Under the pieces are notes generated by a model that worked only from the letters and a program-made list of their open reading frames with translations, made no database searches and was not told the origin of the DNA. This document shows, in pieces, positions 39,311-61,873 of a stretch of DNA of 64,000 bases. The stretch's first letter is position 1, and each line of letters starts with the position of its first letter. The stretch covers positions 1,184,302 through 1,248,301 of the forward strand of contig OZ025876.1 of assembly GCA_964019415.1 (NCBI GenBank). The letters run 5' to 3'. The translations under genes were made by a program, and so were the position numbers. Source of the stretch: Ianthella basta (Eukaryota > Porifera > Demospongiae > Verongiida > Ianthellidae).

Positions 39311-40519
39311 CTAGTCTCTGGTGCGGAGCTTCATTTCAATGCTTTTGTGGCTGGTGGTAAACCCAAACCAGCGGTTGTTTACATTGTATCGTCCATTGTA
39401 TTGTCCATTCAGGTTTGTACACTCACAGTGGTTGTACCACCATCCAGCAGAGCGTGACTGAGCACAGTTACCACTCCACCTGTCATTGTCCCTGTCATAT
39501 GTTGTAAATGCCATCCCATCATGGTTACCATTCGTACTACTACAAGTCACCCCACGCAGTGCATCTCCTGCATTGCCATTGTATGCTCCAATGTCCAGTC
39601 TGTAGTTGGTGAGGTTGTTGTTGACAGAGAAGAAGTTGTACTGTGCATACTTCTTGTTGCCATCAAAGTCACCCAAGTCCACTCTCAGCTCTGCTCTGAA
39701 CACTGCTGCAGTTAGACAGTGGATCTTCTCCAGACCCAACCAGTATTCCCATTTGGGGTCACCAAACCCATTGACATACTCTGACCATCCCCTGTTGAAG
39801 TTGACTTCTCCATTCTTTCGTTTCTGGAAGACCACCCACTGTCCATTGTCCATATCACACCACACCCTGAATGGTTTGATGTGAGGGCACTGTGGGTCAA
39901 TGGTGTAGACACCAGATGTGGTGCACCCTCTCTGGTAAGCCTCTCTGCAGTCATGAGGGAGACCAGGGCCTTGTGGGGTGCCTGGGGAGAGGGGGTGGAC
40001 TGGACAATTATGCTAGATAAGGGTTTGTGAGAGAGAAGTATTGTCTGCACTGCTGCAGTACATTTGTGGAAAATATAATGGGCTTGGTGTTAAGTTTGAG
40101 CATTCACACAGGACATGCAGTTGCTACATGCAGTATGTAACTTTTTCTACCACAAATGCCTTTGTTTGACATGATGACATGGTGCACGTGTTTAGATGGT
40201 ACACATTAATTCAGGTACTGCACTTTGCACAGGAAGGTGGCACCCTCTTCCGCACCCAATCATCCACTAGCCACTTCTCACATGAATAATGGTTCACGCC
40301 AGGGCACTTTTCTCAGACTATTTCCTGTGGAGAACTCTGGCTGTACTACGTAGCTCCCCCCTCCCCACCACACGTACACACACATCCTAGTGCTTCTGTT
40401 CCCTTACCACCATTCTACTACACGCCAGTGTGTAGCTGTTGGTGTGTGTGTAACTCACATGAATACCCCAAGCTGATGAAGGCTGCAGTGAGAACTAGTG
40501 TGCTCACAAGTGGAGTCAT
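39311..40519 (-). CDS. Secreted fibrinogen-related protein, copy C
   Basis: Exons 40459-40519 (signal peptide as in copy A) and 39311-39981 sum to 732 nt, 243 residues, the longest copy. The linker is [19 protein letters not shown] has become REAYQRG. The binding subdomain reads [23 protein letters not shown], then YNGRYNVNNRWFGF, with four extra residues in the last loop compared with copy B. All indels are multiples of three. The upstream TATA region is changed to a TTATTTAAAC-type sequence. Confidence 0.88.
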
Positions 40520-40559
40520 TCTCTTGGACTGTGTTCACTGTCACTGTAGCAGTAGGTAA

Positions 40560-41650
40560 ACTGTTGACAACACCTTGTGACTTGTTTATCTGAAGCAGGC
40601 TCTGTTACTATAGGAATGTAGCTAAGGTTGTTTACTGTGAAGACAGGCCTTGTTTAAATAACCTCCTCTGGGGAAGGAACTCATGAATATCTTTGGGATA
40701 GAATTGATTTTTAATATCTCTGCAGTCTTGTTTATCTGTGCATGAGGCATTGACCATGCCTCCTTTGGGTTCATAAGGAAAGACCTCATGAATACCATTA
40801 ATGTAACTAAGGTGTATGTAATAGAGAAAAGTAAATTACCTTGTACGTCTCTGGCTGCTCCTTGTGGTGGTGCCTCTGTGTGGGGGACTGCATTAGGTGC
40901 ACTGGGGTGATAAACAAGAGTTTTGGATTTTAATCAGACGAAGTACTCTGGTGTCAATATGTTGACACAGTATTGTGAAATCTTTGCAGCTGGTCATGTT
41001 CCAGGTTCAGTTTGCGTACCCCATGACTATCACATATCCATCAAACACTTCTATTAGGTAGAATATACCTAAGGATTGCCTAAGTGGGTTTGTAGCAACA
41101 TCCATCATATGTAACTTTGTACACAATAAATATATAGCTACGTAGCTAATGATTCAACCATTGGCTCCTTTGGGGGTCATAAGGAAATGAATACCATTAA
41201 TGTAACTAAGGTATATGTAATAGAGAAAAGTAAATTACCTTGCCTTACTTGGCCTTACTACATAGTGTGTACAAAGCTATGATGAATGAGCTTCCTAGCC
41301 ACTAAGGCTTTACCAACAGGTTTTAGTACTAGCTCTGAAGAGGAGGACCAGATCACTCAACACCGGCCATGCATGCCCCCTTGGAAACATCTCACTCACC
41401 CCCAATTAGATGATTCTTTGTATTTCTCTTGCCTCCCGCATAATACTCAGATCCTCAGTTCGGCTTTGCTGAAGATGCTTCTAAGCTTAGCACTAAGCAT
41501 GCTTGTGTACAATGGTAGGTGTGCATGTGCATGTGTGCATGTGTATGTATATGTATGCAGTGGCAGTGGGTGTACTCCTGTTCCCATTCACTGCACTACA
41601 TCACTGTACCCACAGGGCGGCCTGTCAATGAGGCACTGGTGAGGAAGAAG
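40560..41650. repeat. Segmental duplication, left copy
   Basis: About 1.1 kb upstream of copy C is nearly identical, with few substitutions and small indels, to 61920-62999 upstream of copy J. This is much closer than most spacer pairs, so it is a recent duplication or conversion tract. Confidence 0.85.
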
Positions 41651-41698
41651 GATGCCAACATCAAGAAGAATTCTTCCTTTGTAAAGAAACTAATATTG
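41286..41698 (+). CDS. Candidate two-exon ORF in FReD spacer (3' partial, doubtful)
   Basis: 41286-41514 (starts MSFLATKALPTGFSTSSEEE, ends SLALSMLVYN) joins in phase through GTAGGT...CCCACAG to 41616-41698 (RPVNEALVRKKDANIKKNSS), followed by a GTGAGC donor. No third exon is found. The ORF is unlike any family I know. The copy at 62631 keeps exon 1 but has lost the acceptor AG. Copies of exon 2 occur in other units. It may be a remnant of a neighbour gene carried along in the duplications. Confidence 0.35.
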
Positions 41699-42385
41699 GT
41701 GAGCCTAGTGTGTGGTTACATTTGTACTGTAGCCACAAGTGTGTTTTTGTATAAGGGTGTAATGGTGTGTGTGTCTGGTCTGTCTGCACATGTGTTCAGA
41801 GGACTCTCACTGAACAGCAGAGAGATTCACTTAGTGCTGACTTTGAATCTGTCTAACTCAACCTTAACTATACATACCTCCATCTGGTGTACAACTGCTG
41901 GTCTGGTCATCAGATTATATACGTATAATTATATGCAGGTACACTGTACAAGCAGGTAGGTTGTTTACTGCAAAGACGAGCCTCCTCTCTATGAGGGAAG
42001 ACCTCATGAATTTCTTTGTGATAAAATGGATTTCTAATGACTCTGCATGTCTTGTTTATCTGTGGGTGAGGCATTGACCCCACATCCTTTGGGTTCATTA
42101 GGATCAAAAAACATCGTGAATACCATGAATATGAAAAAATAAATTACTTCATGCGTAAGTCCCTGGTTTCCCCTTGTGGTAGTGTCTCCACCCACACTGC
42201 ATGCATTGCTGTAGTTACACTGTGGCACAGGGTTTTCCAAATGGTTGTTTCAAACGTTATTCGACTCACGACTCACCTTTCAACTTTGACCTTAAACTTT
42301 AGGTGCTATTACATTAAGGTTCAAAGTTCAGAGGTGAGTCATGTGCGTGAGTCGAGTGACGGTCGCAACAACCATTTTGCAAAAC

Positions 42386-59877: not shown

Positions 59878-59884
59878 TTTTATA
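59878..59884 (-). promoter_or_regulatory. TATA box of FReD copy I
   Basis: GTATAAAAGGAGAGG on the minus strand, 101 bp before the ATG of copy I. Confidence 0.6.
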
Positions 59885-60329
59885 CTTGCTTGTTATTGCC
59901 TTGTGGCTGTGGCCTGAGGTATGTGGGGGGACACAAATACCTACATCTGTTCTCTTTAAGGCTTCTTGAAAATTGCTTCGTGTACGTAAATATGTATTAT
60001 GCTATTGGTGCATTTTCAATAACAATAATAGCAATACTAATGGCTTGAGTTAGAATTCACTGAGGGAATGATGTTCATTGCTGGATGTAACCTTGAGCAA
60101 GACCAGAGTTGTAGCAATGCATGTGCTTTTACAAATTCAGCACTCTTCAAATGTAATCTTATTGTTTGTCTGTTGATTGCCCAGTTGTGCATGAACAGGA
60201 GCAGTTACTTACAGTATAGCAGTGGACTAGCACTAGTTGTGGTTTTTGACGTGTCACATGTTTTGTTAGTACCGTGAATGTGCAGTACATTGTTTGTTAG
60301 CTGGATGCCACTGTCACATTTTATACATA

Positions 60330-60470
60330 CGTGGATCCATTCAGAACTGTACACTGGCAAACAAACGTAGTAACAAACCATAACCATGCATACGCAGCTG
60401 TCACTGTGTCTGCATGTCATTGTCCCTGTATTATGTTTATTGTAAATACTATCCCATCATTTCATATGTA
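60330..60470 (-). pseudogene. Ancient FReD 3' relic 4
   Basis: Another copy of the decayed segment ('tgtacactggcaaacaaacg', 'gtcattgtccctgtattatg'). Confidence 0.55.
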
Positions 60471-60897
60471 TCAAGACAACTGCGGCCACCCATGCACTGA
60501 GGCTGTGATACACCTAGCCCCCCACTTAATTCTAGGAAAATTGGGGTGGGGGTGTGGTGGATGGGGTGCACACATGGTTCTGACGCCTATATATGGATAG
60601 GTATTATTTACAGCGAGTTATCCTTCATTCAGGGCACCTATATGCAGCATAGTTATTGAGTAGGTTCTTTCTCAGGATACCCTATATACTGTATATAGTG
60701 GGCTCCTTGTTCAGGGTGTCCTTCATAGAGAGGTCCCATGCACAGCATGACCACATTTCACATGTACTTCATCACTGTGTTATTGATGCACACCATGCAC
60801 TACAATTGTAGACTACATATCATTGGTTAACTCAATATCCTTGTGTGGTTCTAGTGCTGTGTCTGTAGCTAAACTGTGTTCAGTGATGGACGCTTGA

Positions 60898-61873
60898 CTA
60901 GTCTCTGGTGCGGAGCTTCATTTCAATGCTTTTGTGGCTGTTGGCATGTCCGCCAGTCCAGCGGGTGTCTCCATTGTATGGTCCATTCAGGTGTGCACAG
61001 TGGCAGTAATTGTACCACCATCCACCAGAGTGTGACCGAGAACAGCTATAATTATCCCCCCTGTCATTGTCCCTGTCATATGTTGAGAATGCCATCCCAT
61101 CATGATTTCCAGCCCAACCAGCGCACCCCACCCCATGCATTGCATCCCCTGCATTGCCGCTGTATGCTCCAATGTTCAGTCTGTAGTTGGTGAGGTTGTT
61201 GTTGACAGAGAAGAAGTTGTACTGTGCATACTTCATGTTGCCATCAAAGTCACCCAAGTCCACTCTCAGCTCTGCCCTGAAAACTGCTGCAGTTAGACAG
61301 TGGATCTTCTCTAGACCCAACCAGTATTCCCATTTGGGGTCACCAAACCCATTGACATACTCCAACCATCCCCTGTTGAAGTTGACTTCTCCATTCTTTC
61401 GTTTCTGGAAGACCACCCACTGTCCATTGTCCATATCACACCACACATTGAATGGTTTGATGTGAGGGCACTGTGGGTCAATGGTGTAGACACCAGACGT
61501 GGTGCACCCTCTCTGGTACACCTCTCTGCAGTCACGGGGGGAGACCAGGGCCTCGTGGGGTGCCTGCATGAAGGCAAGAGAGGGGGTGGACTGTTATCAG
61601 GTATTCTTGCTAGATGTATACGTATGGAAGAAGGTGTATAATATTGCAATACTTGCGATTGTGGAGAAGGGAAAGACTCGATTATCTGAGCACTCATAAC
61701 AATTGCCTGAAGTTTCGATACCCCTCTACATCCAAGTGTATGCTTCCATCTGATCTCTTACCACCATTCTACTTCACCCCAGTGTGTAGCTGTTGGTGTG
61801 TGTGTAGCTCACATGAATACCCCAAGCTGATGAAGGCTGCAGTGAGAACTAGTGTGCTCACTAGTGGAATCAT
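60898..61873 (-). pseudogene. Fibrinogen-related gene copy J with one-base frameshift
   Basis: Exons 61813-61873 ([18 protein letters not shown] signal; donor GTGAGC) and 60898-61563 sum to 727 nt, one base too many. The extra base is in a G run at about 61536-61541: six G where copy E has five, in the linker before DCREV. The rest of the FReD is open and carries a distinct binding subdomain ([34 protein letters not shown]). It is a very young pseudogene, a polymorphism, or a homopolymer sequencing error; in the last case it is a functional gene. Confidence 0.8.

Follow-up and report, generated by a model that had tools for sequence, protein, structure and literature searches.

A sponge array of fibrinogen-domain genes with a homogenized scaffold and variable, pocket-aligned residues

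Diversification involving gene conversion has been reported for the fibrinogen-related proteins (FREPs) of molluscs (PMC12074976, PMC7588048). According to excerpts of the second of these reports, Biomphalaria FREPs carry one or two immunoglobulin superfamily (IgSF) domains, which are variable, together with a fibrinogen domain that is relatively conserved (PMC7588048). In sponges, again as given in excerpts of the reports, the Dysidea avara genome encodes 59 PF00147 domains (PMC12909245), and fibrinogen-domain genes of D. avara and Halichondria panicea are among those that respond to immune challenge (PMC6208332, PMC8242945). How does a fibrinogen-domain locus of the sponge Ianthella basta compare? 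The subject here is a 64-kb window (the whole stretch of DNA that was analyzed) of contig C9 in a genome of 209 Mb and 96 contigs. The genes of the array that it contains belong to the Fibrinogen_C (PF00147) family: the copies at 39.3 and 50.1 kb score 224.8 and 211.9 bits against the profile (cutoff, 22), over positions 2-219 and 1-219 of 221, respectively. The locus is probably a tandem array of secreted lectins with a single fibrinogen-related domain (FReD), in which conversion keeps the scaffold alike and diversifying selection keeps the pockets different.

On its minus strand, the window holds eight near-full-length FReD exons and three fragments. The array extends to about 98.9 kb, with six further full-length copies past the window end (window coordinates are used throughout, also for these). 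Twelve of the 14 full-length copies are intact; the remaining two, one with a stop and one with a frameshift, were left out of the codon comparisons. The exon divides into a scaffold of 123 gap-free codons and an island of 78 gap-free codons at its 3' end. Among the 12 intact copies, 95/123 scaffold columns but only 32/78 island columns are invariant at the amino acid level, and dS and dN are 0.101 and 0.029 in the scaffold versus 0.225 and 0.161 in the island. In bins of 30 nt, the nucleotide difference between pairs of copies averages 0.03 to 0.08 in the scaffold, 0.16 to 0.29 in the island, and 0.012 in the final coding bin. This contrast is not a matter of chance. A first-pass annotation of the DNA had described a nearly identical stretch from VWCDMD to DIGAY, a variable C-terminal part, and loops after GxxC and NLNG that vary in length by whole codons, all of which is seen across the copies.

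What happens outside the exon? Over the 100 nt that follow the stop, the 14 copies differ by 0.00 to 0.06 per 10-nt bin (p-distance, about 0.02). Upstream of the exon and more than 140 nt downstream, the difference is about 0.4 to 0.6, and the introns barely align. Low synonymous divergence in an exon bordered by unalignable introns means that the exon has been homogenized. The invariance of the scaffold is largely a product of concerted evolution and not simply of purifying selection, and homogenization of the exon accounts for much of the contrast between scaffold and island. Segmental duplications of 70 to 96% identity are found throughout the array. Unequal exchange would duplicate the copies and, together with gene conversion, would keep the exon scaffold and the proximal 3' untranslated region (UTR) uniform. 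Pairwise distances in the two halves of the scaffold are uncorrelated (r = -0.16), and those in the two halves of the island agree (r = 0.56, p = 0.0005). Exchange is directly visible in two of 11 pairs compared: copies I60901 and x98183 have islands that differ by 3% within unrelated flanks, and I60901 and x78216 have a common upstream flank (4.4% different) and islands that differ by 23%.

The edges of the homogenized block bear on another explanation, namely that an active local process generates the diversity, beyond duplication, exchange, and selection, be it a mutator directed at the island or conversion that is exon limited or cDNA mediated. Homology between copies ends about at the splice acceptor and ~140 nt past the stop, near the probable mRNA boundaries, and the change at the island is abrupt, taking place within ~30 nt. 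Identical edges are, however, predicted by ordinary homology-limited conversion. Upstream of exon 1, homology tapers off and does not halt at a start site, and the 3' end is not defined, since 13/14 copies have neither AATAAA nor ATTAAA less than 400 nt from the stop. The duplicated FReD fragments, moreover, hold one variant and form no donor library, and such a process is very improbable. A cassette-donor library was itself considered and rejected. The truncated fragment at 42382-42564 (minus strand) recurs at 64676, 75290, and 81813, duplicated together with its surroundings; all four share a single variant (GCNDNISHDG) and lie within segmental duplications, which marks them as copies of one truncated pseudogene rather than donors.

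Must selection be invoked at all, beyond conversion and exchange? Conversion geometry could suffice if the 5' part of the exon and the 3' UTR were homogenized while the island, having drifted past the homology that conversion needs, diverged under relaxed constraint. Codon models argue for more than this. The one-ratio omega is 1.01 for the C9 island and 0.37 for the scaffold. In the island, M8 exceeds M7 by 41.5 and M2a exceeds M1a by 40.1, with an omega of about 4.8 for ~20% of the gap-free codons, even though near-neutral sites are already provided for in M7. Alignments were simulated from the fitted null model, 100 for each of three settings in which 1, 2, or 4 segments were shuffled independently. 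The largest M8-M7 values were 7.3, 14.3, and 14.9, respectively, and none of the 300 reached 41.5. Also against conversion geometry alone, the synonymous excess of the C9 island over the scaffold at amino-acid-invariant columns (0.098 versus 0.058) is not significant (p = 0.11), although the corresponding excess is significant in a second array, C2:10.05M (p = 0.002).

Where do the selected sites lie on the fold? Positions were assigned by sequence alignment to FIBCD1, with residue letters checked against the chain; AlphaFold2 models of seven window copies had a mean pLDDT of 28.5 and were not used. Excerpts of the FIBCD1 report place the acetyl pocket S1 at residues 405, 415, 431, 432, and 443, describe Asn413-Cys414 as a cis-peptide, and assign calcium to residues 393, 395, 397, and 399. 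They also state that ficolins, tachylectin-5A (TL5A), and FIBCD1 mostly keep the S1 residues Tyr405, His415, Tyr431, and Ala432 (PMC3908420). The C9 sites with a posterior of >0.9 align to FIBCD1 404, 405, 413, 415, 434, 436, 438, and 442; three others are loop sites. This class includes the columns matching FIBCD1 405, 413, and 415, which read LYRHHYHSNNLH, ANHAANYANNAY, and YQERWQHQWQYH, respectively. In the S1-aligned columns of C9, pN is 0.513, or 2.4 times the island pS, and exceeds that of random island columns (permutation p = 0.0008; only two copies have the 431 column). At the same time, WW, both cysteines of the 401-414 pair, LN, W437, and EMK are fixed in 12/12 copies; variation at pocket residues beside fixed structural residues counts against drift under relaxed constraint.

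The pattern in C9 is the reverse of the usual one, in which S1 residues are mostly conserved. Tyr at 405 and His at 415 are each retained in only 2/12 copies, and the 431/432 loop is shortened, with the aligned residues mostly missing. One or both of the residues aligned to the calcium ligands Asp393 and Asp395 are changed in 6/12 intact copies (an alignment that depends on loop gaps), so that binding by some copies may be calcium independent or directed at other ligands. The variable subdomain had been equated with the ligand pocket of ficolins and tachylectins. Its columns do coincide with S1 of FIBCD1, but pocket and calcium residues are lost in so many copies that the family cannot be taken to bind acetylated sugars, and a glycan of some kind would be the presumptive ligand.

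Is the C9 array alone in this? Genome-wide, 141 exon-level PF00147 matches were obtained among 150 scored (178 candidates), about 76 of which cover most of the profile, with clusters on C2, C6, C9, and C16. Two arrays on C2 were compared with C9: C2:10.05M, with 10 tblastn hits (9 with reading frames, 8 used), and C2:12.2M, with 21 hits (19 with reading frames, 17 used); the comparison left out C16:5.04-5.27M and C2:15.1M. Scaffold dS/dN and island dS/dN are 0.157/0.040 and 0.568/0.246 in C2:10.05M and 0.552/0.126 and 1.046/0.311 in C2:12.2M. Island M8-M7 values are 26.2 (8 copies) and 23.6 (17 copies), respectively. The arrays are correlated in their per-column island entropy (rho = 0.44, 0.53, and 0.61). 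When columns are picked by the looser sites of the other arrays, pN at these columns is raised in C9 (p = 0.007), C2:10.05M (p = 0.0004), and C2:12.2M (p = 0.0004). With the stricter selected sites, it is significant in C2:10.05M (p = 0.0024) and C2:12.2M (p = 0.0002). The S1-aligned columns likewise have a higher pN than random island columns (C2:10.05M, p = 0.013; C2:12.2M, p = 0.025). As for the pocket residues themselves, Tyr at 405 is retained in 8/17 and His at 415 in 9/17 of the C2:12.2M copies. Both calcium aspartates are kept in 8/8 C2:10.05M copies; in C2:12.2M, 395 is kept in 17/17 and 393 in 16/17.

Two smaller groups also change in the pocket. In four close copies on C6, pS is flat (scaffold, 0.148; island, 0.164) while pN climbs from 0.009 to 0.056, a nonsynonymous rise with no synonymous one, which speaks against conversion geometry alone. 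The changes align to FIBCD1 297, 381-386, 396-397, 404-405, 412-413, and 415-416. On C16, two copies forming a pair have three residue differences, aligned to 319, 396, and 413. The pocket is the moving part in 5/5 groups examined, with and without differential homogenization. A bolder reading, which we hold to be doubtful, is that exon-wide conversion in the several arrays would renew the framework and ship intact islands between copies. Each individual might then have a fast-changing germline repertoire of its own, built by a logic like that of antigen receptor gene segments, in a non-bilaterian animal.

The favored combination of conversion in the scaffold with diversifying selection in the pocket has to be set against several results that weigh the other way. 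(i) The site models were run with our own code on FastTree topologies and give naive posteriors. (ii) The C9 scaffold also signals weakly (M8-M7, 8.0; M2a-M1a, 7.5), at one site. (iii) Over the island as a whole, NG86 dN/dS stays under 1 in each of the three arrays (C9, 0.71; the others, 0.43 and 0.30), and pN exceeds pS in only 8/66 pairs of C9 islands. (iv) Since island dS is itself raised, part of the contrast is due to conversion. (v) Distances in scaffold half A and island half B are weakly correlated (r = 0.39, p = 0.026), in one of four scaffold-island comparisons. (vi) In C2:12.2M, divergence in the second scaffold half almost equals that of the island, the rise starting in midscaffold. 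(vii) With the stricter sites of the other arrays, the C9 columns are only suggestive (4 columns, p = 0.085).

Some of these points speak directly for conversion geometry without diversifying selection, as do the twofold ratio of island dS to scaffold dS, the recombining flanks of the array copies, and the equal variation of island codon positions 1, 2, and 3 (0.155, 0.158, and 0.152). Taken with the M8 result, the fixed structural residues, and the C6 copies, that explanation is nevertheless unlikely. The nonsynonymous excess is confined to particular sites and does not extend over the whole island. The first-pass annotation had named a dN/dS below 1 at the variable sites as a refutation; this check was run and did not refute the view, given the M8 class with an omega of about 4.8, although NG86 dN/dS over the whole island is 0.71. 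Diversifying selection would hold ligand-pocket residues apart between copies: if difference in the pocket is favored, conversion that erases an island is disfavored, because it costs diversity. We infer that resistance to conversion comes from such selection and not from a local mutator. Targeted point mutation of the kind made by prokaryotic diversity-generating retroelements was also considered, because the changes in several variable codons fall at positions 1 and 2. The equality of the three positions across the island lends it no support (reverse transcriptases were not searched for). The lone selected scaffold site is C9 codon 52, aligned to FIBCD1 296 and adjoining Arg297 of the S3 site, and the sites aligned to 298 and 300 vary in the C2 arrays, a hint that there may be a second binding patch.

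What kind of protein do these genes encode? A signal-peptide-like exon 1 lies upstream of 11/14 copies, 7 of these inside the window, at 264 to 620 nt from the FReD in 10/14 copies and 1,057 nt in one; it was not recognized for 3/14 copies. The putative exon 1 of copy A is at 40427-40519 (minus strand; donor site uncertain), and similar minus-strand starts for other window copies are at 23999, 27795, 45883, 48406, 51294, and 59777. Judged by eye and by pattern, its start is hydrophobic and similar in most copies, as expected of a putative signal peptide. A Pfam scan of two FReD reading frames returned Fibrinogen_C alone. Only the short stretch GTPQGPGLP precedes the FReD, and a collagen-like region is absent. 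No conserved immunoglobulin (Ig) exon was seen, the DNA between exon 1 and the FReD being unalignable among copies; Ig domains were not searched for across the genome. These genes would encode a short secreted polypeptide that consists of one FReD.

The individual copies, all on the minus strand, can now be listed from left to right. Two intact copies, g23022 (23019-23648; exon, 23022-23648) and g26709 (26706-27374; exon, 26709-27374), lie outside the interval 39311-61873 that the first-pass annotation had singled out. Copy A39314 (39311-40012; exon, 39314-40012) is intact and matches Fibrinogen_C with an E value of 1.6e-66. Its hypervariable island, from the AYNG codons to the end, spans approximately 39311-39583 and includes the residues aligned to the S1 pocket and calcium loop, and the 140 nt 3' of its stop (39171-39310) are nearly identical across 14/14 copies. 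Next come the intact copy C44677 (44674-45351; exon, 44677-45351), copy D47403 (47400-48080; exon, 47403-48080), which has a single in-frame TAG in the GxxC loop and is a probable pseudogene or allele, and the intact copy E50123 (50120-50791; exon, 50123-50791). A 3' fragment, from WWYNSCECANLNG onwards, lies at 52959-53084 and a 5' fragment with one stop at 54492-54776. Finally, there are two more intact copies, H58097 (58094-58780; exon, 58097-58780) and I60901 (60898-61539; exon, 60901-61539). The frameshifted copy, at 84576-85237, is beyond the window. In place of the ten whole copies (A to J) first counted, the interval thus contains six full-length copies and three fragments, while the array as such is real and larger than was noted. 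The residue X of the C-X-C motif had been read as Y, Q, E, R, Y, W, E, Q, and H. This series is exact for the copies at 23.0, 26.7, 39.3, 44.7, 47.4, and 50.1 kb, the 52.96-kb fragment, and the copies at 58.1 and 60.9 kb, but the second cysteine is not universal, as C44677 has C-R-Y.

The array also contains a 3.7-kb segmental duplication without a FReD (33510-37225 and 87312-90915; 90% identity). On the plus strand of the window, an 838-residue open frame at 14403-16919 consists of many near-identical tandem CCCH-like zinc modules (Pfam zf-CCCH_3, E = 2.5e-12) that look recently duplicated. Also on the plus strand are an open frame in which long GGPPIPPSGGPP proline repeats come after a WW domain (2785-4311) and a Death-domain reading frame (6854-7210; Pfam E = 2.8e-05). 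Elsewhere in the genome, six nuclear receptor zinc finger exons were found (13 candidates scored), five of them within 50 kb (C14:7044990-7093263), and mitochondrial COX1 has TGA in frame nine times. Compared with nuclear receptor counts in other animals, the small number of these exons speaks against a bilaterian and is in keeping with a sponge.

What might so many pockets be for? The outcome would be a germline repertoire of one fold and many pockets, most likely directed at microbial or other non-self glycans, and the proteins may have an immune role. Diversification for allorecognition between conspecifics, or for tuning to symbionts, in place of pathogen recognition is a quite unlikely alternative on our assessment. 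Germline pocket diversity suits any self/non-self system, and allorecognition is listed among the roles of fibrinogen domains in excerpts of one of the mollusc reports (PMC7588048). Against it, excerpts of the D. avara study report fibrinogen-domain genes that are differentially expressed after exposure to microbial patterns (PMC6208332), though the present data do not separate allorecognition from microbial recognition. If pocket diversification for recognition is correct, a sponge without adaptive immunity uses the fibrinogen-lectin fold for a germline recognition repertoire whose diversity is directed at the pocket itself and not at added Ig domains. Matching variable residues in several arrays would then make discrimination among microbes, symbionts, and self in early animals directly testable.

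Finally, how does the array stand beside described systems? At the level of titles and excerpts, and with papers on mussel and oyster FREP variability outside the scope, no pocket-diversified FReD array in sponges was found in the literature; the sponge reports, as excerpted, give counts and expression and describe neither array structure nor pocket selection. By sequence, the fold is the Fibrinogen_C fold of FIBCD1 (E = 2.6e-50 with a C2:10.05M copy), and the C-terminal part of copy A matches TL5A (chain 1jc9) and ficolins. Unlike ficolins, the C9 copies have no collagen region, and the pocket is not conserved. The first-pass view of a pocket-diversified recognition family stands as far as FReD diversification is centered on the pocket, while the invariant scaffold set beside it is largely homogenization. 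Its comparison with FREPs also needs qualification. Like those of Biomphalaria glabrata, these genes would form a tandem multigene family of secreted fibrinogen-domain recognition proteins; unlike them, they have the FReD only, and the variation lies in the FReD pocket. Since no Ig exon is evident and the fibrinogen domain of Biomphalaria FREPs is conserved, the array resembles FREPs in its logic but is not one. The C9 family is closest to single-domain FReDs. The Biomphalaria sFReDs likewise consist of a fibrinogen domain alone, one more diverse than that of the FREPs, although excerpts of the same source describe for them neither a split between conserved scaffold and variable pocket nor selection at pocket sites (PMC7588048), the two features that set the sponge array apart.

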